From contig JAJPIL010000022.1 in the NCBI GenBank assembly GCA_021324755.1, forward strand, positions 1 through 64,000: a DNA stretch of 64,000 nucleotides. Direction: 5' to 3'. This stretch comes from Pseudomonadota bacterium (GTDB lineage Bacteria; Desulfobacterota; Binatia; Binatales; Binataceae). The notes under the pieces were generated by a model, which did not search any database, was not told the origin of the DNA, and saw nothing but the letters and a program-made list of their open reading frames with translations. Of the stretch, positions 4,248 through 58,624 are shown one piece after another. Positions within the stretch are counted from its first letter, which is position 1; every line of letters begins with the position of its first letter. A program made the translations under genes and the position numbers.

Positions 4248-7220
4248 TTAGACTTCGCGCTCTTCTTCTCGCTGGAAGTAGCGTTCAAAGCACTCTCGTA
4301 CCTCGCGCCGCCGCTCTTTAATTTCGTTCAGAAGGCGCTCGCCAGCATCGGCCGACTCGAATCCCAGTTTGCGCGCCAACGGGGTCAGTTTTGCGGGGTC
4401 TGTGGGGATAGCCCACGCCGGCTGGTCGCTTTCGATGCGCAGCAGATGTTCGACTAAGGAGAGGAACTCGTAATGGGAGATCAGGCGCTCGCAATCGTGT
4501 GGGTCAACCAGCCCTGCCTCCCGGAGCACGGCTAGCAGTCGGCTAGCGGCTCGTTCATTTTGAAGCGCCGGATAGGTTTTGCCGTAACGCAAGGCGAGCA
4601 TCTGTGTCAAAAACTCGACATCGACCAGGCCGCCAGGTCCGTGCTTTAAATTGAGTTGGCTGTCGTTTTCTGGGCTTACTTCATGCTCGATTCGCACGCG
4701 CATGTTTTCAATTTCTTTGACCTCGGCACACCTCAACGAGCGAGCGAAGGCGGCCTCTTTGCGGCAAAGTTCAATTTTTTCACGCAAGCTTAGATCGCCA
4801 GCAACGGCTCTTGCTTTGACAAGCGACTGACGCTCCCACACAGCGGCGCTTGTGCGGTAGTAATCGCGCCAGCTTTCGAGCGCGGTTACAAGCGGTCCAG
4901 CGTTGCCCGATGGCCTAAGCCTCAGATCGACTTTGTAAACGTACCCTTCGCGGGTTTTTGTCTCGAGCACGGCGATAACCTTTTGCGCGACTCGCGCTGC
5001 GGCTTCATGACTTGCGAGCGGGTTTTCTGCGAGTGGTTCGTAGATGAAGATAAGATCGAGATCGGAGTTGTAAGACATTTCGGCCGCTCCAAGTCGGCCC
5101 ATCGCCACGATCGCCATCGCTACACGCTGCGCCGTCGGAATTTTTGGGGCGCACTGCTCGCGCGCAATTTCGAGGGCGAACTCCAAGATAGTCTCAGCAA
5201 GCACGGTGAGCTCGCGCTGGACTTCGCTGAATCCGATTTGCGCGTTGAGGTCGGCCATCGCTATGCGCAAGAACTCCTGATGGCGAAAACTGCGCAGCAT
5301 GTCGAGACGGCTTTCGTAGTCCGGGCACGCGCTGAGCAGGTCGCGCAGTTCGTCGGCAAGTTCCCTCGGTAAGCGGCTTACGCGCGCTAGATCGGACCGT
5401 ACGAGTGTGTCAAGAAGCTCCGGATGACGGATAAAAAGCGCGGAGAGATAGCGACTGGAGGAAAACAGCCGCAAAAGCGCCCGGCGTGTCGGTTCATGGG
5501 TGTCGAGAAGCGAGAGAAACGAGGTTCGGGCTCCCACAGCCGCGATAAACTGGGCGAGATTAGCAAGCGCCATGTCCGGATCGGGTTCATGTCGAATTTC
5601 GTCCAATAGCCGCGGCCCAAGGCTTTCAAGTAGCGCCCGTCGCCGTGGCGTCGAAAGCGCGTACTCAGGGCCTCGAGCAAGAAGCAGCAGATGGTTTGCG
5701 CTCTCTTCGGGATTCTTAAATCCCAGCGCACCGAGCACCGGAGCTGATCGCTCAGGTTCGAGCGCAACGGCCCAGGCCTGTCGCGCGGTTGCAGAAACGG
5801 CTTTCGCGTAAGGCCGTTCGTCCGCGCCCAGAAGTTCGGCAAAGATGCTAGACACTTCGTTGCGGTGCTTCTCCAGCAGCTCGTTGAATCGCTCGACCGC
5901 CTTGGGGCTCTTGCCTAGACCGAGCCGAGCGCTCAAAACGCGCATTGCCGAAACGTCAGCTGGAAGCGTGTGGCTTTGCAAACCTGCCGCTACTTGAAGC
6001 TTGTGTTCGACGTCGCGGAGAAAAACGTACGCCTCGCTAAGTTTGCGGGCGCGTTCCCCATCGATGTAGCCCGCGCGCGCCAATCGTTCAATCGCCTCGA
6101 GCGTGCGCGGTGTTCGTATCCTTGGGTCTCGTCCTCCATAAACCAACGTCAAAGCCTGAACGATAAATTCGAGCTCGCGAATTCCGCCACGGCCAAGCTT
6201 GATATTGCGCGCGACCATCACGGGTTCGCGCATTTCGAACTCTATCTGACGCTTCATCGCCCGCAACTGGCCAAGCGTCTCAAAGTCCGAGTAACGCCGG
6301 TAGATGAAGCGTTCTAGTTCTGCCAAGAACCGGGCGCTCGGAGCTCTGGGACCAGCCACCGGCCGGGCCCGCAACAACACCGCTCGCTCCCAGGTTTGCC
6401 CGAAGCTTTCATAAAACGCCAACGCTTCCTCAAAGGAGGCCACCAAAGGTGCAAAGCGTCCGCCGGGTCTTAGTCTCAAGTCAATTCTGAAGCCGGCGTT
6501 GCGTAGAAGCTCGGTGGTGAGTTCGGCCCGTTTGGTCGCGATCAGTTTGTCCGTGTGGGGATCGTTCCCGACAGCGTCGAAAAGATAGGCCAGATCGAGA
6601 TCGGAGCTCAAATTTAGTTCGCCCGCACCGAGCTTGCCCAAGGCGAAAACGCAGAGCGAAATATCCGGCGCCGGTCGTTCCTTTGCAAAGCGGGTAGCTC
6701 CGAAAAGGGCAGCTTCGATACACCGGTCGGCCAATGCCGACATCGCGGCCATCGTTTCCGTTACGTCCAAACGATCGAGCAAATCACCGACTGCAATCTC
6801 CAGAAAAATCCGCTGCCTACTCAGAGCAAGCCGCTTTTGAAACTCCCCTAGGTCGTCAATTTGGTCGAAGTTGAAATCAATGCCGAGTAGAAGCCTTCTT
6901 AGGTCCTGAGCACGCACCCGGCGAAAAAATTCGAGCCATCGCTGGCCCATCGTGGCTAGCCCGGTTGCGACTAACTCCGAGGCACCTAGGCAAAACACTA
7001 GGTCTTGCGCGACATCCGAGTCGGCTAAAGCCTCTCTGAGTAAGGATGGTGTTTGCTCGGCAAGCTTAAGGAGGAAGGAGCAGGCCAGACGTTCGTCTGG
7101 CGCTTTTACCTCTACAAGATGCCGTCCAAAGGCCGCAAGCCTTTTATCGCCCAGCGCCGCTTCTAGGCGCGGCTGAACGGCATCCCAGTGCACGCTACCG
7201 CCGAGCAAAGTTGTAGCCAT
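4248..7220 (-). CDS. glnE: Bifunctional glutamine synthetase adenylyltransferase / adenylyl-removing enzyme (GlnE)
   Basis: Adds AMP to, and removes it from, a tyrosine of glutamine synthetase in response to nitrogen status. The protein is about 990 residues, typical of full-length GlnE. Two nucleotidyltransferase halves are visible: the N-terminal one with LGKLGAGELNLSSDLDLAYL and the C-terminal one with MGRLGAAEMSYNSDLDLIFIY, both with the DxD metal motif. Helical GlnE regions follow each. I chose the ATG at 7220; a TTG nine codons upstream keeps the frame open, and no clear ribosome binding site separates the two. No glnA or glnB is in view. Confidence 0.95.
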   Translation of the reverse strand: MATTLLGGSVHWDAVQPRLEAALGDKRLAAFGRHLVEVKAPDERLACSFLLKLAEQTPSLLREALADSDVAQDLVFCLGASELVATGLATMGQRWLEFFRRVRAQDLRRLLLGIDFNFDQIDDLGEFQKRLALSRQRIFLEIAVGDLLDRLDVTETMAAMSALADRCIEAALFGATRFAKERPAPDISLCVFALGKLGAGELNLSSDLDLAYLFDAVGNDPHTDKLIATKRAELTTELLRNAGFRIDLRLRPGGRFAPLVASFEEALAFYESFGQTWERAVLLRARPVAGPRAPSARFLAELERFIYRRYSDFETLGQLRAMKRQIEFEMREPVMVARNIKLGRGGIRELEFIVQALTLVYGGRDPRIRTPRTLEAIERLARAGYIDGERARKLSEAYVFLRDVEHKLQVAAGLQSHTLPADVSAMRVLSARLGLGKSPKAVERFNELLEKHRNEVSSIFAELLGADERPYAKAVSATARQAWAVALEPERSAPVLGALGFKNPEESANHLLLLARGPEYALSTPRRRALLESLGPRLLDEIRHEPDPDMALANLAQFIAAVGARTSFLSLLDTHEPTRRALLRLFSSSRYLSALFIRHPELLDTLVRSDLARVSRLPRELADELRDLLSACPDYESRLDMLRSFRHQEFLRIAMADLNAQIGFSEVQRELTVLAETILEFALEIAREQCAPKIPTAQRVAMAIVAMGRLGAAEMSYNSDLDLIFIYEPLAENPLASHEAAARVAQKVIAVLETKTREGYVYKVDLRLRPSGNAGPLVTALESWRDYYRTSAAVWERQSLVKARAVAGDLSLREKIELCRKEAAFARSLRCAEVKEIENMRVRIEHEVSPENDSQLNLKHGPGGLVDVEFLTQMLALRYGKTYPALQNERAASRLLAVLREAGLVDPHDCERLISHYEFLSLVEHLLRIESDQPAWAIPTDPAKLTPLARKLGFESADAGERLLNEIKERRREVRECFERYFQREEEREV

Positions 7221-7599: not shown

Positions 7600-8799
7600 T
7601 TAAGCCCGCCGCACTGGCGCGTGATGGTGCCTGTGGTGGGAAGAGCCACTACGGCCGTGACGATGGCCAGCGTGGTGACTCCTTGGATGCCATACGGCAT
7701 GGTGCAAATAGCTATGCCGCGCGCTCGAGGACACCGTGTAAGGACCGCGCCATACGCTGGGCGTAGGGGGTGGGTCGGCCATAGCAATCTCCGTCTCAAT
7801 GCCCGGGAAGTACTTATCCCTGTTCCGGCTGACCTCGAGGGCAGCTAAAAACTCGGCGTAATAATTGCGGGAAGCGAAGCCGAAGTGGGGTCCTCGGTAG
7901 TATTTGAATATCTTTTCAAAGTCGCTTCCTTCAGCAGCGACGGCGTCGTCCATGCCAGCCGTTCCATAAATGTACGCCGTAATGGCGAGCGGCCAACTGC
8001 CGAAGTGCTCATAGTTGCGGCGAAGGATTCGAGCTGCAGCCTCCGTCGAACGCTCAATATCGAAGCGCTCATCATACGAGCGATTTACCACAAGGTCGTA
8101 TTCCCGTGCTGCTGCTGCAGTGAGTTGCCAAAGACCCACAGCGCCAGCGTGCGACCGCGCTCCGGCGTAGAAGCACGATTCAACCCCAGGCAATACGGCT
8201 AATTCCAGAGGAACGCCCGCTATAAGTAGTTCGCGCTCGATTATCGCCTTATAGAAGTCTGCCCTGACCAAACCCGCTCGGAAACGCTCTCGCATCCCTT
8301 GTTGAACTCTGAGGTTGTCTGCAGCCTGAGCGTAATCTGGAAACGGGTCATGTTCGAACAGAGAAGCTACATGGCGCTCGTCGTAACCCAACGGTGGCCA
8401 TCCTTGGCGCAGATGGTCAAAAATATCGCGGTACTTGGCCTTCAAATAAGCGTTGACCCACTCGATTTCACTCGGCGTTGGATCGCCGTAGCCGTCCAAA
8501 TGAAAAACTTCGTAGATTCTCGAAATCTTATCCCGGTCATGAACGATAAAGTCGCGCGTCGAATACCGGGTGAAAACGTCGATCCAAAAGTTCACGTTCG
8601 GCTCGATACTTGGAAAGCGCGGGAAATTCTCGGACGAGTAAGCGCGAATTGCGAACAAACAAATCGGGCTTAAAATTGACAAGAGCAGAAAGGTCTTGAA
8701 CGATCTCTTCAGCCAAAAGTGTGCGCGTTGGCTTCGGGCCCGCCGGTTCTTTACTTCCTCTGCACTAGCTTCGTCTAGGTTTTCTTGTCTCGAGGTCAT
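7600..8799 (-). CDS. Membrane-anchored SLT-family lytic transglycosylase with His-rich C-terminal tail
   Basis: Probable periplasmic murein lytic transglycosylase of family 1 (Slt/MltD-like fold). The chosen ATG at 8799 has a good GGAGG site nine bases upstream; a TTG at 8841 would add 14 residues. An N-terminal membrane segment (about residues 35-52) is followed by the catalytic region: LAVLPGVESCF with the probable catalytic Glu, then AGAVGLWQL, and later FGFASRNYYAEFLAAL. The usual AYNxG-type motif reads AYIYG here. The last 43 residues hold 13 histidines plus many Arg and Ser, which is not part of the family fold. The exact substrate and role are unknown. Confidence 0.85.
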   Translation of the reverse strand: MTSRQENLDEASAEEVKNRRARSQRAHFWLKRSFKTFLLLSILSPICLFAIRAYSSENFPRFPSIEPNVNFWIDVFTRYSTRDFIVHDRDKISRIYEVFHLDGYGDPTPSEIEWVNAYLKAKYRDIFDHLRQGWPPLGYDERHVASLFEHDPFPDYAQAADNLRVQQGMRERFRAGLVRADFYKAIIERELLIAGVPLELAVLPGVESCFYAGARSHAGAVGLWQLTAAAAREYDLVVNRSYDERFDIERSTEAAARILRRNYEHFGSWPLAITAYIYGTAGMDDAVAAEGSDFEKIFKYYRGPHFGFASRNYYAEFLAALEVSRNRDKYFPGIETEIAMADPPPTPSVWRGPYTVSSSARHSYLHHAVWHPRSHHAGHRHGRSGSSHHRHHHAPVRRA

Positions 8800-9409
8800 C
8801 GGCCTTATCCTCCGCGCTCGTGGCCTGATCGTCTCCCTCAACTACAACAGCAAGTATGCAGAGTTTGGCTGAAAATACAAGACTTAACAACTACCAGCAT
8901 AAGCTAATTCCCCGTCTTGGATCTAGCTTCGCGTTGCGACCCGTCCGACGCTTTCTCATCCGCTTATTGCGTTGAAAAGGCTCGAAACCAAAACTGGAAC
9001 ACTACAACTTGGGAAAGCGAGGAGCCGTAAAGCAATCTCGTTCCCCATTCTCAACGAAAGAAAGTCCGATGTTCAAAACAAAGTTTTCGCTGATAAACTG
9101 TGCTTCGTGCTTTTTTAACAGGCCAAATTCAGCGCTTTAAGGTCAGTGAGGGGCGTGACTTTTCGTCGGCAATGGCGGTAGGCAAGCAAATAGTTTCGGG
9201 CGGAATTTACATGACTAGGTTGTTATTCTTAGGAAAATCCAGCAGGTTAGCTCGAGTTGCATAAACGTAAGCGAAGGACTTCCGTGTATTTTTCGTCTTT
9301 TCGACGCCCTGGCGTAGGCTTTTCGTAGAGATCCTTGCGGCGGACGAGCTTGAAGTGATGTCACGCCGTGGCGCTGTCGGGTTATCTTAGAATAGAGACG
9401 ATTTTTAGA
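8800..9409. other. Divergent intergenic region between the lytic transglycosylase gene and aroA
   Basis: About 600 bases separate two divergent genes, and the stretch is AT-richer than its neighbours. It must carry promoters for both directions, but I could not identify a convincing -35/-10 pair. No open frame with family signatures, tRNA or known small RNA was recognised. Confidence 0.35.
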
Positions 9410-10702
9410 ATGCGTACGTTTGGCGAAGAGATCGAGATTTCAGCCGTTGGGCGGTTCGACGCAGTTATAAGAGTGCCAGGCTCAAAAAGTCTTACGAATC
9501 GCGCGCTTTTGCTGGCCGCGATGGCCAGGGGCGCCACCCGCATCACAGGAGCGCTTTTCGCCGACGATACCCGTGCGATGGTCCAGGCGCTACGACAGCT
9601 CGGTTTTGACGTGGTGACAGACGAGCATTCATCCTCGATAGTCGTGGAGGGGCGCGGGGGGGCCATTCCAGCCCATCAGGCAGATCTTTTTGCGGACGGA
9701 GCGGGAACGGTCATGCGCTTTTTGGCCGGTTTCTTGACGCTCGGTAAAGGCCGATACCGGCTCGATGGGAACTCCAGGATGCGGCAGCGGCCGATTGGTC
9801 CGATGGTTGCGGCTTTACAAAGCTTGGGGCTACGAGTGTCTTTCGAAGGAATCCCGGGGTATCCGCCGATTGTTGTTGAAGCTGGACCCGATTCGTTTCG
9901 CGGCGGCAGCTGCACGATTAATGCTGCTATATCTTCCCAGTTTGTAAGCGGGCTTCTTCTGCCGGCTCCGCTTTGGCGCGACGGGCTTCGTCTGACTGTT
10001 ACCCAGGCGGCAGCGCAGCCGTTTATCTGGATGACTGTCGCGCTGATGCGGCAATGGGGTGCGCAAGTCGACTACTTGGGACAGCTTGTCAGCGTGCCCG
10101 GAGGACAGAACTACAAGTCAGCTGGTCGTTTCGAGATCGAGCCGGATGCGTCGAACGCGAGTTACTTTGCGGCCGCGGCAGCCTTGTGCGGAGGCCGAGT
10201 GAGATTACCGGGAGTTTTTATCGGGCAGTCGGTGCAGGGAGATGTGGCGTTTTTGAAGATTCTAGAGAAGATGGGAGCTAAAGTGCGGCAGTATGAGCAA
10301 GGAACGGAAATCTCGGGCACCGGCAGCTTGTGTGGGGTTGACGTTGACATGAGCTCGATACCGGACATGGTGGCGACGCTTGCGGCTTTGGCTCCGTTCG
10401 CCAGCACGCCGACCACGATTCGCAACGTGGGCTTCATTCGGCATCACGAAAGCGACCGTTTGGCGGCTATCGGTCAAGAGCTTAGGCGTTTAGGTGCCGT
10501 TGTGTTCGAGCGGGAGGACGGGCTTTACATCGAGCCGTCTAAGCTTACGCCTAGACAGGCGGTTGAGACATACAACGACCATCGAATCGCGATGGCCTTT
10601 GCGGTAGCTGGGCTTAAGCTTGGGGGTCTTCGGCTCAAGAACCCCGCTTGTGTGACCAAAACTTACCCCACCTTCTTTGACGACCTGGCTTCGCTTGCGT
10701 AA
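9410..10702 (+). CDS. aroA: 3-phosphoshikimate 1-carboxyvinyltransferase (EPSP synthase)
   Basis: Sixth step of the shikimate pathway, joining PEP to shikimate 3-phosphate. From the ATG at 9410 the protein has 430 residues, normal for AroA; a GTG at 9368 would add 14 residues without family similarity. Seen in order: VPGSKSLTNRALLLAA near the N-terminus (phosphate-binding Lys and Ser), the DGAGTVMRFLAG segment, LDGNSRMRQRPIGPM, and the C-terminal NVGFIRHHESDR and TYNDHRIAMAFAVAGL. It stands alone, with neighbours on the opposite strand on both sides. Confidence 0.95.
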   Translation: MRTFGEEIEISAVGRFDAVIRVPGSKSLTNRALLLAAMARGATRITGALFADDTRAMVQALRQLGFDVVTDEHSSSIVVEGRGGAIPAHQADLFADGAGTVMRFLAGFLTLGKGRYRLDGNSRMRQRPIGPMVAALQSLGLRVSFEGIPGYPPIVVEAGPDSFRGGSCTINAAISSQFVSGLLLPAPLWRDGLRLTVTQAAAQPFIWMTVALMRQWGAQVDYLGQLVSVPGGQNYKSAGRFEIEPDASNASYFAAAAALCGGRVRLPGVFIGQSVQGDVAFLKILEKMGAKVRQYEQGTEISGTGSLCGVDVDMSSIPDMVATLAALAPFASTPTTIRNVGFIRHHESDRLAAIGQELRRLGAVVFEREDGLYIEPSKLTPRQAVETYNDHRIAMAFAVAGLKLGGLRLKNPACVTKTYPTFFDDLASLA

Positions 10703-10744
10703 CGCGCGATATCAACCAGTCGTATCGGGCGAAGTAAGCTAGAA

Positions 10745-10850
10745 AACCCTACCGCGGCAGGAAAAAGAAAGGCCAGGTAGGAACAAAAAGGCCCGAGCCC
10801 GCCTCAAAAGCGCAAAGTTAGACAGTGGCCTTTAAGTTGCGAGCTCGGGC
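10745..10850. other. Cluster of interlocking inverted repeats between aroA and gloA
   Basis: Three inverted repeats lie in about 105 bases between two convergent genes. CCTACC at 10748-10753 pairs with 10776-10781. AAAGGCCA at 10768-10775 pairs with 10826-10833. GCCCGAGC at 10791-10798 pairs with 10843-10850. The second and third pairings cross each other, as in an H-type pseudoknot. The position suits a bidirectional transcription end, but no U-tract follows the stems, so a structured RNA is equally possible. Confidence 0.4.
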
Positions 10851-54345: not shown

Positions 54346-55311
54346 TCATCCTGTTTGCGAAGTCGGTTCGGCAGAGTTTCCCTTGCCGTTAACGTCGGCG
54401 CCTGCAGCCTGGCGAGCTTTCAGTTCGGCTAAATCTGTAGTGGTTAAGACTTCGATAAACTTTCGCAACGCAGGCCAAAGTTCGCGGCTACGTTTGTAGA
54501 TAATCGCCAGCGGGCGAAGAAAGCTTTCGCCCTCGAACTCGATGATTTTTACCCAGCCTTGGGCTGCTTCTCGCTCGACCGAAAGCCTCGGCACAATGGC
54601 GATCCCCATCCCGATTTCTACCGCCCGCTTGATCGTCTCAATATTGTCGAACTCCATGACATAGTTGGGCTTGACGTTGTGGGCGCGTAGAACTTTGTCA
54701 GTTGCCTTCCGCGTGCTCTGGTCGCGCTCGTAGCCGATAAAGTTCTCGCCTTGCAATTGAGCAAACGACACTTTGCTCTGCGAGGCTAGCTTGTGATGCC
54801 TCGGCACAATCAAAACCATCTCGTCGGTCCGAAACGGGATGGCGGTTAACTGGCTGCGCTTCACCGGATAGACGACGATACCCAGGTCAATCCGTCCATC
54901 CAGAAGTTCCTCGTATATTCGGTTGGACCGCAGATACTCCAGATGCACGTTCACTGCGGGATAGAGGCGCAAAAACTCGGTCAAATACGGCGGTAACTCA
55001 TGTAGTCCAACGCTATAGACTGTGCCCACGCGGATCGAGCCGGATACCACTGAACCCGCTTCACGCAGGCTGTTGTCCAGCTCCATAAACAAGCGAACAA
55101 TCTCCTTGCTGATGTTGTACAACGTGCGGCCGGCCGCCGTCGCCTTGACGCCGTTGCGCCCTCGCTCAACCAGCCGACAGCCATACTTTTCCTCGAGGGT
55201 GCGCACCTGCTGACTGACCGCAGACTGGGTTACGAAGTTTTGCGAAGCGGCATAAGAAAAACTGCCGCTTTCGATGATGTCGCAGAAAACCTTGAGCGTT
55301 TCTACATGCAT
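54346..55311 (-). CDS. LysR-family transcriptional regulator
   Basis: DNA-binding regulator of 321 residues. The N-terminal winged helix-turn-helix (LKVFCDIIESGSFSYAASQNF, TQSAVSQQVRTLEEKYG, ERGRNG) is the LysR signature, and the effector-binding domain follows (IRVGTVYSVGLHELPPYL, RIDLGIVVYPV, GIAIVPRLSVE). The last 20 residues are a low-complexity tail. It is divergent from the glutaryl-CoA-type dehydrogenase gene, the usual arrangement for a LysR protein and its target. The effector is unknown. Confidence 0.92.
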   Translation of the reverse strand: MHVETLKVFCDIIESGSFSYAASQNFVTQSAVSQQVRTLEEKYGCRLVERGRNGVKATAAGRTLYNISKEIVRLFMELDNSLREAGSVVSGSIRVGTVYSVGLHELPPYLTEFLRLYPAVNVHLEYLRSNRIYEELLDGRIDLGIVVYPVKRSQLTAIPFRTDEMVLIVPRHHKLASQSKVSFAQLQGENFIGYERDQSTRKATDKVLRAHNVKPNYVMEFDNIETIKRAVEIGMGIAIVPRLSVEREAAQGWVKIIEFEGESFLRPLAIIYKRSRELWPALRKFIEVLTTTDLAELKARQAAGADVNGKGNSAEPTSQTG

Positions 55312-55848
55312 CTTCGAGCCTTATGTCAAAGTTAGTATTAGCGAAGCTTAAGTTAAAAATATAACGAGGCGGAACCTTGGTGCAACCCGTCGGCCAACTG
55401 GCCATATCAATCTTTTAGATTAAATTAAATTCGGTGTCCTCGCTTTAAAAACCCTTTCAACGTGCCTCTCTTCCGTCTGTTCGGCCAGCTTTAATTGAGG
55501 GTAGTTAAATTTGAACCGAACACATTGTTCGTTTTGTGAACAGTAAGAGTAACAATTGTCCAAGACAGTTCAACGCCCCAACGCGCCTGTGAACAGAGAG
55601 ATCGCATCAATTGGCCGCGTGGCGCGCTCGCCTCTGGTCTTGACACAGGCTAAACTCCCAACATGGCTTTGTCTTCGCTCCAATCGTTTCTACCGAGTGT
55701 CTGCGCTTGGCTCGTTTTTGCCCTGCGACTTAAGCCGGGTTTTACGCACCTAACGACGACTGTGGTGCACGCAGCAGAGCTTCAAAGCCTGTTGATAAAT
55801 GACGTGATACGATTATGTCCCGCCAAGGAAGCATGAAGGGGGTAAGTG
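55312..55848. other. Divergent regulatory region between the lysR and acyl-CoA dehydrogenase genes
   Basis: A 537-base region expected to carry promoters for both genes and the LysR operator. The clearest structure is the set of GAAC/GTTC half-sites at 55513-55542, listed separately. No gene is seen. Confidence 0.5.
55513..55542. promoter_or_regulatory. Overlapping palindromes, candidate operator
   Basis: Two overlapping palindromes: CGAAC-N5-GTTCG (55517-55531) and TGTTC-N7-GAACA (55526-55542), with one more GAAC upstream. They lie about 200 bases from the lysR start and 300 from the dehydrogenase start. The regulator bound is unknown; LysR is a natural candidate. Confidence 0.45.
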
Positions 55849-57021
55849 ATGACTGCGACGTTGTTGCGTGACTTAGATTACCTTGCGCTGGACGAGCTTC
55901 TTTCGACAGAGGAAAGAATGACGCGCGATGCCGTTAGGCGCTTTGTTGAGCGGGATGTGCTGCCCGTAATCGAGCACCATTTCGCTGCAAGCACGTTTCC
56001 GATGGAGCTCGTGCCGGCGATGGCGGAGCTTGGAATTTTTGGCGCAAGCCTCAAAGGATACGGATGCGCAGGTATGAACGCTATTGCCTATGGCTTGATC
56101 ATGCAGGAACTTGAAGCTGCAGATTCGGGGTTGCGTTCGTTTGCCTCGGTGCAAAGTGCGCTCGCGATGTATGCGATCTATGCGTTTGGGTCCGAGGAAC
56201 AAAAGCGCCGGTTTTTGCCAGAGATGGCCAAGGGAAAACTCATCGGATGTTTCGGGTTGACCGAACCGGACCATGGCTCGGACCCGGGTAGCATGGAAAC
56301 CAAGGCTCAACGCGATGGCGCGGGATGGGTATTGAACGGCACGAAGCGTTGGATAACTAACGGCAGTATCGCCGATCTGGCTATCGTCTGGGCGAAGGTA
56401 GAGGAAGGAATCGCCGGTTTTATCGTGGAGAAAGGCAAACCTGGCTTCTCTGCGCACGAGATGAAAGGCAAGTTTTCGATGCGGGCTTCGATAACCTCGG
56501 AACTCGTTCTCGAAGACGTGCGCCTGAGCGAAAGCGAGCGTTTGCCCCACGCGCGAGGCCTCAGAGCCGCTCTCGCCTGCCTCAATGAAGCCCGTTACGG
56601 AATCGCCTGGGGTGCCGTCGGAGCTGCCCGCACTTGCTACAACTGCGCGTTGGATTACGCAAAGTCGCGCCGCCAGTTCTCACGGCCGATCGCCGGCTAC
56701 CAGTTGGTGCAACAAAAGCTGGTGGAGATGCTCAGCGAAATAACCAAAGCACAGCTCCTATGCTTGCGTTTAGGTCAGCTGAAAAATGAAGGGAAGCTTC
56801 GACCGCAACAAGTTTCCCTAGCTAAGCGCAACAACGTGGCACAGGCGCTTAATATTGCGCGGATGGCTCGCGATATCCTGGGCGCCAACGGTATCGTTAA
56901 CGAATACCCCGTTATTCGTCACATGCTGAACCTGGAGACGGTGAATACCTACGAGGGGACCCACGACATTCACACTCTTATCCTGGGCCGCGATATCACG
57001 GGCCTCGACGCGTTCGATTAA
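55849..57021 (+). CDS. Acyl-CoA dehydrogenase, glutaryl-CoA dehydrogenase type
   Basis: FAD enzyme of about 390 residues. GCFGLTEPDHGSDPGSMET is the FAD-binding loop, and the catalytic base lies in TYEGTHDIHTLILGRDITGL, the form specific to glutaryl-CoA dehydrogenases. DSGLRSFASVQSALAM keeps the Arg that binds the substrate's terminal carboxylate in the known enzyme. It would oxidise and decarboxylate glutaryl-CoA to crotonyl-CoA, as in lysine or aromatic degradation. An AGGGGG site favours the ATG at 55849 over the GTG three bases earlier. The divergent LysR gene may control it. Confidence 0.88.
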   Translation: MTATLLRDLDYLALDELLSTEERMTRDAVRRFVERDVLPVIEHHFAASTFPMELVPAMAELGIFGASLKGYGCAGMNAIAYGLIMQELEAADSGLRSFASVQSALAMYAIYAFGSEEQKRRFLPEMAKGKLIGCFGLTEPDHGSDPGSMETKAQRDGAGWVLNGTKRWITNGSIADLAIVWAKVEEGIAGFIVEKGKPGFSAHEMKGKFSMRASITSELVLEDVRLSESERLPHARGLRAALACLNEARYGIAWGAVGAARTCYNCALDYAKSRRQFSRPIAGYQLVQQKLVEMLSEITKAQLLCLRLGQLKNEGKLRPQQVSLAKRNNVAQALNIARMARDILGANGIVNEYPVIRHMLNLETVNTYEGTHDIHTLILGRDITGLDAFD

Positions 57022-57190: not shown

Positions 57191-58624
57191 TCATGACCCG
57201 TTGGCGAGGCGGCGGGCATACGCGGCGACACTATTGAAGTCGTACTCTCGATACGCTTGAAGCTTTTCCGCCTCGAGCCCACCTTCGGCATGTACGGCGA
57301 GTACCTCCTGGTAACCCCCGAAGTCCGAGGCAGTAAGGTCGCTTATCAAATTCAGCAACCTAAGACGCTCCTCAGCATTCACGCCTTTCGCTCCGCGGAG
57401 GTATTTAAGCACATAAGTGCGCGTAGCTTCGCTGGTCAAGTCTTCCGCGGCGGGGGCCGTGACCAAAAGGCCGCCCGCTAGGTCTTGGACTATCTGGACC
57501 GCCTGATGATAGTTGTGCGCGAAGTGATATTTGGCGACATTGGTCAAAAGCGTGTTCGGAACCGCAAGACCATGTTCAAATGTGCATGCCAAAGCTGCGC
57601 GCTCCGTAAGTCCCTTGACCACGGTATGGTAAACGGCAAGATGCGTAAGCTTGTCACGGACGTGCGAAGCTTTAACGATTCCGTTTGCCTCTGCAACCGC
57701 GTAAGCTGCGCCCACCAGAAGTTCTAGTAATGGCAGCTTGTATGAAATCGCCGTGAATCGGTGGTAGCGCACGAAACTCAAAGCCAGCGGCCCGGCAAAT
57801 TCTGTCTCGCCCTTGAGAAACACGCGTTCATTCGGCACAAATACGTCGTCGAAGACGGTAAGCGTCTCCATCATTTTATGGCGCGCGCTTATGGGATGCT
57901 CGAACGCGTTCTTGGGAGCGCTACCGTGGGGGCTGGCGATAAGCTTGAGCCCGGGGGTTGCTACCGGAAGCGCGAACGAAACGGCGTAGTCCCGGTCCTC
58001 TGGTCTCATCGCCCGAGTAGGAAGAACGATGATTTCGTTGGCGTTAACCGATACCGAGGTGTGAACCTTTGCGCCTCGAACGACGATCCCGTCGCTCAGC
58101 TCCTTTACGATCCTGACGTAACAGTCAGGGTCTTCCTGAGCGCTCGGACCAAGCATGCGGTCACCCTTGACATCGGTTTGAGCGACGGCGAGCGCTAAAT
58201 CGTTGTCTCGGCAATAATGGTAAAACTTTTCTATGCGCTCAAGATAATGAGGCTTGCCTCTGGCGGCCAGCTCCGCACCGACTAATCGCAAAGCAAAAAG
58301 TGCATCGGTGCCGATCTCCTTTATCAGCACCACTAACGTTGCTCCCTCGCGCGTTGCGGCGGCGATAAGCTCGCTGCGCTTGAGCAGATCTTCGGCGGTT
58401 CGCGGCAGGTGGTAGTATCGGCTGTATTCGCGACCGTTCTCCCGCACTACCGCAAGCTCTCTGAATCGAGGGTCCTCGGCCATGCGGTAATCGATGCTGG
58501 CGTGTTCGACAGCTATCTTGATCACTGGGTGAGTGGTCACGTCGTCGACCCGCTCTCCTCGAAAATATACGGCGCGCCCGTCGCGCAGAGACTCTTTGTA
58601 TTGTTCTTCGGTCCTGAGCCCCAC
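57191..58624 (-). CDS. 4-hydroxybutyryl-CoA dehydratase / HpaB-like flavoprotein lacking iron-sulfur ligands
   Basis: Protein of 477 residues in the 4-hydroxyphenylacetate 3-hydroxylase (HpaB)-like family. Its body reads like the dehydratase AbfD: TDVKGDRMLGPSAQEDPDCYVRI, DGIVVRGAKVHTSVSVNANE, VFDDVFVPNERVFL, KASHVRDKL, and AGGLLVTAPAAEDL. By eye alignment, three cysteines that bind the [4Fe-4S] cluster in the Clostridium enzyme are Val99, Glu103 and Tyr295 here, while the His ligand is kept as His288. A dehydratase of the classical kind is therefore unlikely; a flavin-dependent oxygenase or another acyl-CoA reaction is more plausible. It converges with the glutaryl-CoA-type gene. Confidence 0.78.
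   Translation of the reverse strand: MGLRTEEQYKESLRDGRAVYFRGERVDDVTTHPVIKIAVEHASIDYRMAEDPRFRELAVVRENGREYSRYYHLPRTAEDLLKRSELIAAATREGATLVVLIKEIGTDALFALRLVGAELAARGKPHYLERIEKFYHYCRDNDLALAVAQTDVKGDRMLGPSAQEDPDCYVRIVKELSDGIVVRGAKVHTSVSVNANEIIVLPTRAMRPEDRDYAVSFALPVATPGLKLIASPHGSAPKNAFEHPISARHKMMETLTVFDDVFVPNERVFLKGETEFAGPLALSFVRYHRFTAISYKLPLLELLVGAAYAVAEANGIVKASHVRDKLTHLAVYHTVVKGLTERAALACTFEHGLAVPNTLLTNVAKYHFAHNYHQAVQIVQDLAGGLLVTAPAAEDLTSEATRTYVLKYLRGAKGVNAEERLRLLNLISDLTASDFGGYQEVLAVHAEGGLEAEKLQAYREYDFNSVAAYARRLANGS

Follow-up and report, generated by a model that had tools for sequence, protein, structure and literature searches.

At position 57191 to 58624 of the 64,000-nucleotide stretch of DNA analysed here (the window), a gene of a soil bacterium encodes a homologue of 4-hydroxybutyryl-CoA dehydratase (AbfD), the textbook case of radical catalysis by a flavin and an iron-sulfur cluster. 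The original prediction described this protein as an AbfD-like body that had lost three of the four cluster ligands. We asked whether the protein can carry the cluster, where it belongs in its superfamily and which reaction it might catalyse in place of dehydration.

Domains, fold and cluster ligands

The open reading frame starts with a GTG codon at 58624 and its stop codon ends at 57191 (Table 1). The protein belongs to the HpaB/AbfD superfamily, as both Pfam domains matched over their full length and above gathering score: HpaB_N (PF11794) with an E-value of 6.6e-85 and 285.4 bits against a cut-off of 35, and HpaB (PF03241) with 2.7e-54 and 183.8 bits against a cut-off of 25. No acyl-CoA dehydrogenase Pfam domain was matched at 1e-3, and PADLOC returned no match. 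The curated HpaB models TIGR02309 (226.2 bits, cut-off 480.2) and TIGR02310 (140.5 bits, cut-off 885.2) stayed below threshold. In agreement with the predicted AbfD-like body, the best solved relative found by phmmer was AbfD (1u8v, 249.7 bits), followed by the Nitrosopumilus enzyme (6vjr, 218.0 bits) and Thermus HpaB (2yyg, 205.9 bits). The AlphaFold model (mean pLDDT 94.3) was also closest to 1u8v, with a Z-score of 46.4 over 473 residues, next to 45.9 for 6vjr and 44.5 for 2yyl; Foldseek TM-scores of 0.93, 0.92 and 0.92 gave no separation. Since Z-scores and TM-scores were nearly equal, the fold alone left the choice between AbfD and HpaB undecided.

We take the [4Fe-4S] ligands of AbfD to be C99, C103, H292 and C299, where the letters C, C, H and C were seen in the alignment. 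The ligand columns were read from two alignments, one by phmmer to chain 1u8v_A and one by MAFFT of 91 rows, which agreed that C99, C103 and C299 are replaced by V99, E103 and Y295, leaving H288 (H292 in AbfD) as the only ligand kept. These are the residues that had been predicted, no cysteine was found at a ligand position, and the usual [4Fe-4S] cluster cannot be built with three of its four ligands replaced. On these grounds the protein is almost certainly free of this cluster. Across the 86 family rows of the MAFFT alignment, position 299 was tyrosine and position 292 was histidine in 86/86, so the replacement is not due to chance. Among 60 compared members, H288, R289, Y295, H445 and E447 were invariant. 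A cluster site elsewhere in the protein was rejected because its only three cysteines (138, 168 and 347) are not invariant among relatives: residue 138 is cysteine in 39/60 and residue 347 in 19/60, and residue 168 is most often tyrosine (25) or phenylalanine (13).

The active site showed three changes beyond those originally predicted, Y296 of AbfD being replaced by A292, E455 by L442 and A460 by E447. The AbfD residues E257, R293 and K300 are kept as E253, R289 and K296, and T190 corresponds to S190. Y296, E455, E257 and T190 are presumably the residues that start the radical in AbfD; the set found here is A292, L442, E253 and S190, with two of the four replaced. Y296 and E455 reportedly take part in the radical start, and their mutation is said to abolish activity.

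Table 1. Positions of the gene, its active-site codons and the neighbouring genes in the window.
Feature	Position	Strand	Basis or conservation
Cluster-less AbfD/HpaB-superfamily flavoprotein CDS, 477 aa, stop included	57191..58624	-	ORF, Pfam, phmmer
V99 codon, at AbfD ligand C99	58328..58330	-	Both alignments; V 29, P 28, I 1, gap 2 of 60 relatives
E103 codon, at AbfD ligand C103	58316..58318	-	E 36, D 21, L 2, V 1 of 60 relatives
E253 codon, at AbfD E257	57866..57868	-	E 39, D 19, H 2 of 60 relatives
H288 codon, at AbfD ligand H292	57761..57763	-	H in 60/60 relatives
A292 codon, at AbfD Y296	57749..57751	-	A 41, G 19 of 60 relatives
Y295 codon, at AbfD ligand C299	57740..57742	-	Y in 60/60 relatives
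L442 codon, at AbfD E455	57299..57301	-	MAFFT alignment
E447 codon, at AbfD A460	57284..57286	-	E in 60/60 clade members; G in most cluster-bearing rows
Acyl-CoA dehydrogenase, glutaryl-CoA dehydrogenase kind, convergent with the gene	55846..57021	+	Start GTG 55846 or ATG 55849
LysR-type regulator, beyond the dehydrogenase and divergent from it	54346..55311	-	ORF list, Pfam

Distribution, phylogeny and history of the cluster

Orthologs were searched in 57 genomes at a threshold of at least 70% identity and were found in 34/35 genomes of the window's family, 3/3 of a second family in the class and 0/19 others; the only family genome without one is 53% complete. A decaying copy, whether a pseudogene or a chance loss of the ligands, was rejected: these residues do not vary between phyla, and the gene is kept in 34 of the 35 family genomes. 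One ortholog (G030:C8:13166-14589) is split over two adjacent frames, covering query residues 1-140 and 141-475, by a frameshift or an assembly error. Profiling of contigs gave at least 80 loci, which fall into three clades: clade A, with Binatota-type loci; clade B, with Chloroflexota, Methylomirabilota, Acidobacteriota, Tectomicrobia, some Desulfobacterota and one betaproteobacterial record (58-64% identity); and clade C, with Desulfobacterota, Bacillota and others (42-46% identity).

A tree was built on 85 rows of a 122-row alignment, after 37 near-duplicates had been removed by hand and the columns of the ligands and of the C-terminal site excluded. The query grouped with clades A and B (24 rows, support 100/100), and this group was nested in a 41-row clade (100/97) together with clade C and some paralogs from anaerobes. 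The 13 HpaB-type rows split off with support of 100/100 and the query lies outside them, so that the position within HpaB monooxygenases which would have contradicted the original prediction was not seen. The four-ligand rows and L116 formed a separate clade of 26 rows (100/99), again without the query; its union with the 41-row clade was weak (88/62). Columns conserved at 97% or more in 60 clade rows (55 in all) were also compared with 36 AbfD-side and 13 HpaB rows, a column counting as shared above 85%: 23 were common to the four-ligand AbfD side only, 1 to HpaB only, 8 to both and 23 to neither, the HpaB share being lowered because its 13 rows are few and diverse. By the features compared, the protein falls on the superfamily's AbfD side and is a member of neither 4HBD nor HpaB. 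It has in common with AbfD (1u8v; N. maritimus 6vjr) the fold, the 23 exclusive columns, H292-R293, K300, E257 and, for its clade, an acyl-CoA setting, but differs at C99, C103, C299, Y296, E455 and A460 and by its place outside the four-ligand clade. It represents a conserved new variant within the known HpaB/AbfD superfamily.

The wording of the original prediction, that the ligands had been lost, is unproven. The tree requires one change for C99, two for C103 and three for the C299 motif, and with HpaB as the outgroup C99 is most simply explained by a gain on the AbfD branch, the shorter of the two histories. This is opposed by four rows inside the 41-row clade (L133, 4890-6422; L134; L135; L139, a gene near 4998) that keep H292-R293 and C103 and have valine at C99, three of the four also keeping the C299 motif (C-K). 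These four proteins may be three-ligand intermediates whose retained cysteines are relics. A single loss of the cluster, by which the 47 AbfD-side rows that lack it would all form one clade, was disfavoured (AU p 0.0134, for a grouping named after the tree had been seen). A further set of rows (L112, L113, L114, L115, L117 and L138) lacks both the cysteine ligands and the histidine and carries the motif WERLGG or WERIGG; its hosts are genomes of the Binatota family and one other genome.

Gene neighbourhood in the window and in other phyla

The original prediction had the gene converging with a glutaryl-CoA-type dehydrogenase gene and a LysR regulator. The former does converge with it, and its kind was confirmed by 494 bits to 2eba and 445 bits to 1sir, all NCBIfam models staying below cut-off; the LysR gene is not convergent but diverges from the dehydrogenase (Table 1). 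Among 38 clade-A loci examined, the dehydrogenase stands beside the gene in 8 and a LysR gene is near it in 7, so the adjacency of the dehydrogenase is a matter of local synteny. The check suggested with the original prediction was for a clade of ligand-less members with conserved neighbours; the clade was recovered, and conservation of the neighbours is not supported. Many clade-A loci have housekeeping genes or an SDR next to the gene.

Of 26 clade-B loci, 5 carry an AMP-ligase no more than two genes away (AMP-binding was confirmed in L091), and L083 has a CoA-transferase pair ahead of the gene; many other loci, for example in Dehalococcoidia, are without acyl-CoA genes nearby. Clade C has an SDR no more than two genes away in 16/19 loci, and the operon in L094 also holds genes for a thiolase, a ChsH2-type OB-fold protein, a MaoC-type hydratase, a FabK/NMO-type protein and an acyl-CoA dehydrogenase. 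The genes found beside it in other phyla suggest acyl-CoA catabolism. The predicted link to an acyl-CoA or aromatic pathway therefore stands as to its first half, an acyl-CoA setting being likely, but specific support for an aromatic pathway was not found. Branched-chain-type ABC transporter genes were read from the sequence by eye beside loci of clades B and C, as were genes for a 3-hydroxyacyl-CoA dehydrogenase next to L132 and L136.

SDRs were more frequent within two genes than far from the gene, at 31/129 against 3/272 in clade A, 7/96 against 2/160 in clade B and 16/64 against 0/104 in clade C, counts that are not independent as the clade-A loci share descent. A single conserved SDR partner was rejected: the SDRs of clades A, B and C belong to different tree branches or subfamilies, and none stands beside the gene in the window; in the genome of the window, the best match to the clade-A SDR reaches 40%. 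In three loci (L060, L061 and L085) there is a second copy of clade A. A TPP-enzyme gene, verified by Pfam in L085, lies close by on its upstream side, and a gene that looks luciferase-like by eye lies close by downstream.

Candidate chemistry

The cluster site is replaced by other conserved residues, and the protein is therefore likely to perform another, so far unstudied step in acyl-CoA metabolism. We favour, with a probability of about 60%, the view that this AbfD-side protein is an FAD enzyme free of iron-sulfur and converts an acyl-CoA by acid-base or two-electron flavin chemistry rather than by ketyl-radical dehydration. That the substrate is an acyl-CoA is a rather likely component of this reading, suggested by neighbours and relatives; the thin acyl-CoA context in the window's own family, where the dehydrogenase is adjacent in the 8/38 loci given above, is a point against it. 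FAD would be placed as in AbfD and HpaB, and E103 (or aspartate), Y295, H288 and E447 would border the cavity occupied by the cluster in AbfD. If H288 and/or E447 moved protons at the acyl chain and E253-S190 contacted the flavin N5, the reaction would be of this acid-base or two-electron kind.

AbfD has a second activity as a vinylacetyl-CoA isomerase, part of which survives air damage to the cluster. By analogy with this activity, isomerisation of a double bond in an unsaturated acyl-CoA would be the likeliest single reaction, although it is less likely than not; alpha,beta- or gamma-dehydrogenation ranks next. BbuA, which according to PMC8364193 is a gamma-butyrobetainyl-CoA lyase of the acyl-CoA dehydrogenase family with about 10% identity to 4HBD, offers an analogue for the capabilities of an enzyme of this sort: it uses a flavin, lacks the AbfD cluster and performs a redox-neutral C4 elimination on an acyl-CoA.

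The best surviving alternative, though an unlikely one, is an oxidase or reductase resembling acyl-CoA dehydrogenases, in which a hydride passes from the acyl chain to the flavin, with E447 or E103 as the base and ETF as the partner. The overall fold is common to acyl-CoA dehydrogenases (Z about 23-24), and the disappearance of radical-start residues together with the new invariant E447 would suit such a reaction. However, identity to these enzymes in the structural alignment is about 15%, their Pfam domains find no match in the protein, and the clade-C operon already holds an acyl-CoA dehydrogenase.

Less probable still is a two-component, FADH2-dependent monooxygenase of group D (HpaB/HadA-like) that hydroxylates an aromatic or CoA-bound substrate with O2 and is served by an unlinked reductase. 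The protein has the Pfam domains and fold (2yyl) of HpaB-type enzymes (2yyg, 9lft, HadA) and, as they do, a Thr or Ser at position 190 and an acidic residue at 253. The host genome is of the aerobic type (four COX1 matches), so oxygen chemistry would be possible there, and it has one PF01613 reductase, located on another contig. This reading was nevertheless rejected as the first choice on the tree, the flavin-site arginines and the lack of a linked PF01613 reductase on the draft contigs. Besides the separate clade and the scores far below the TIGR02309 and TIGR02310 cut-offs, the HpaB residues R100, R225 and R433 (Tth columns), each arginine in 14/14 HpaB rows, are L100, S231 and Y438 in the query, and H142 is V147. 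Position 100 is leucine in 56/60 clade rows, and arginine is found at position 231 in 21/60. Equivalents of HadA Arg101, Arg233 and Arg439 are universal in FADH-using group D enzymes, according to PMC8342789; the query has L100, S231 and Y438 at the three, 233 and 439 being paired with the Tth columns by offset. A PF01613 flavin reductase was linked to the gene in 0/17 genomes, a count that covers PF01613 only and draws on short draft contigs. Three of 16 clade-B and clade-C genomes had no PF01613 gene at all, and the single case on the same contig lay ~528 kb from the gene. COX1 was absent from 6/8 clade-C genomes, which came without completeness values, and COX1-family hits were found in 2/8.

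A true 4-hydroxyacyl-CoA dehydratase that removes water with E103, Y295 and E447 as acid catalysts replacing the Lewis-acid iron is the least credible of the three and very improbable: H288, E253, S190 and K296 are kept, ionisable residues fill the cluster space and one locus (L136) combines a clade member (9407-10783) with a four-ligand copy (4944-6386), but Y296 and E455, whose AbfD mutants are reportedly inactive, are replaced, and the C3 proton of a 4-hydroxyacyl-CoA is not acidic without radical activation.

Extended from this protein to its relatives, the reading of a cluster-free acyl-CoA enzyme becomes more speculative. The 41-row clade might consist of such enzymes, widespread in uncultured soil and sediment bacteria, with chemistry undescribed for the AbfD fold (flavin-assisted isomerisation, elimination or dehydrogenation by H288, Y295 and E447), and might show that [4Fe-4S] was added to a flavin-only acyl-CoA enzyme en route to AbfD; we consider this conceivable, with the balance somewhat against it. 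A search of open-licence papers found no description of a cluster-less AbfD clade. A conserved sister clade with the histidine kept and the cysteines replaced by defined residues would help to probe what the flavin site does alone and the order in which cluster and radical chemistry arose, and would caution against the automatic names 'HpaB' and '4-hydroxybutyryl-CoA dehydratase' for genes of the clade in carbon-cycle surveys.

In L136, both AbfD-family genes are on the minus strand, and a gene between them (8020-8892) was read by eye as a 3-hydroxyacyl-CoA dehydrogenase. This locus and L140-L171 come from genomes of anaerobes with many full-ligand AbfD-family paralogs, up to 9 family matches being found in one of them (G060), and the number of full-ligand paralogs in these anaerobes is far above the need of one 4-hydroxybutyrate pathway.
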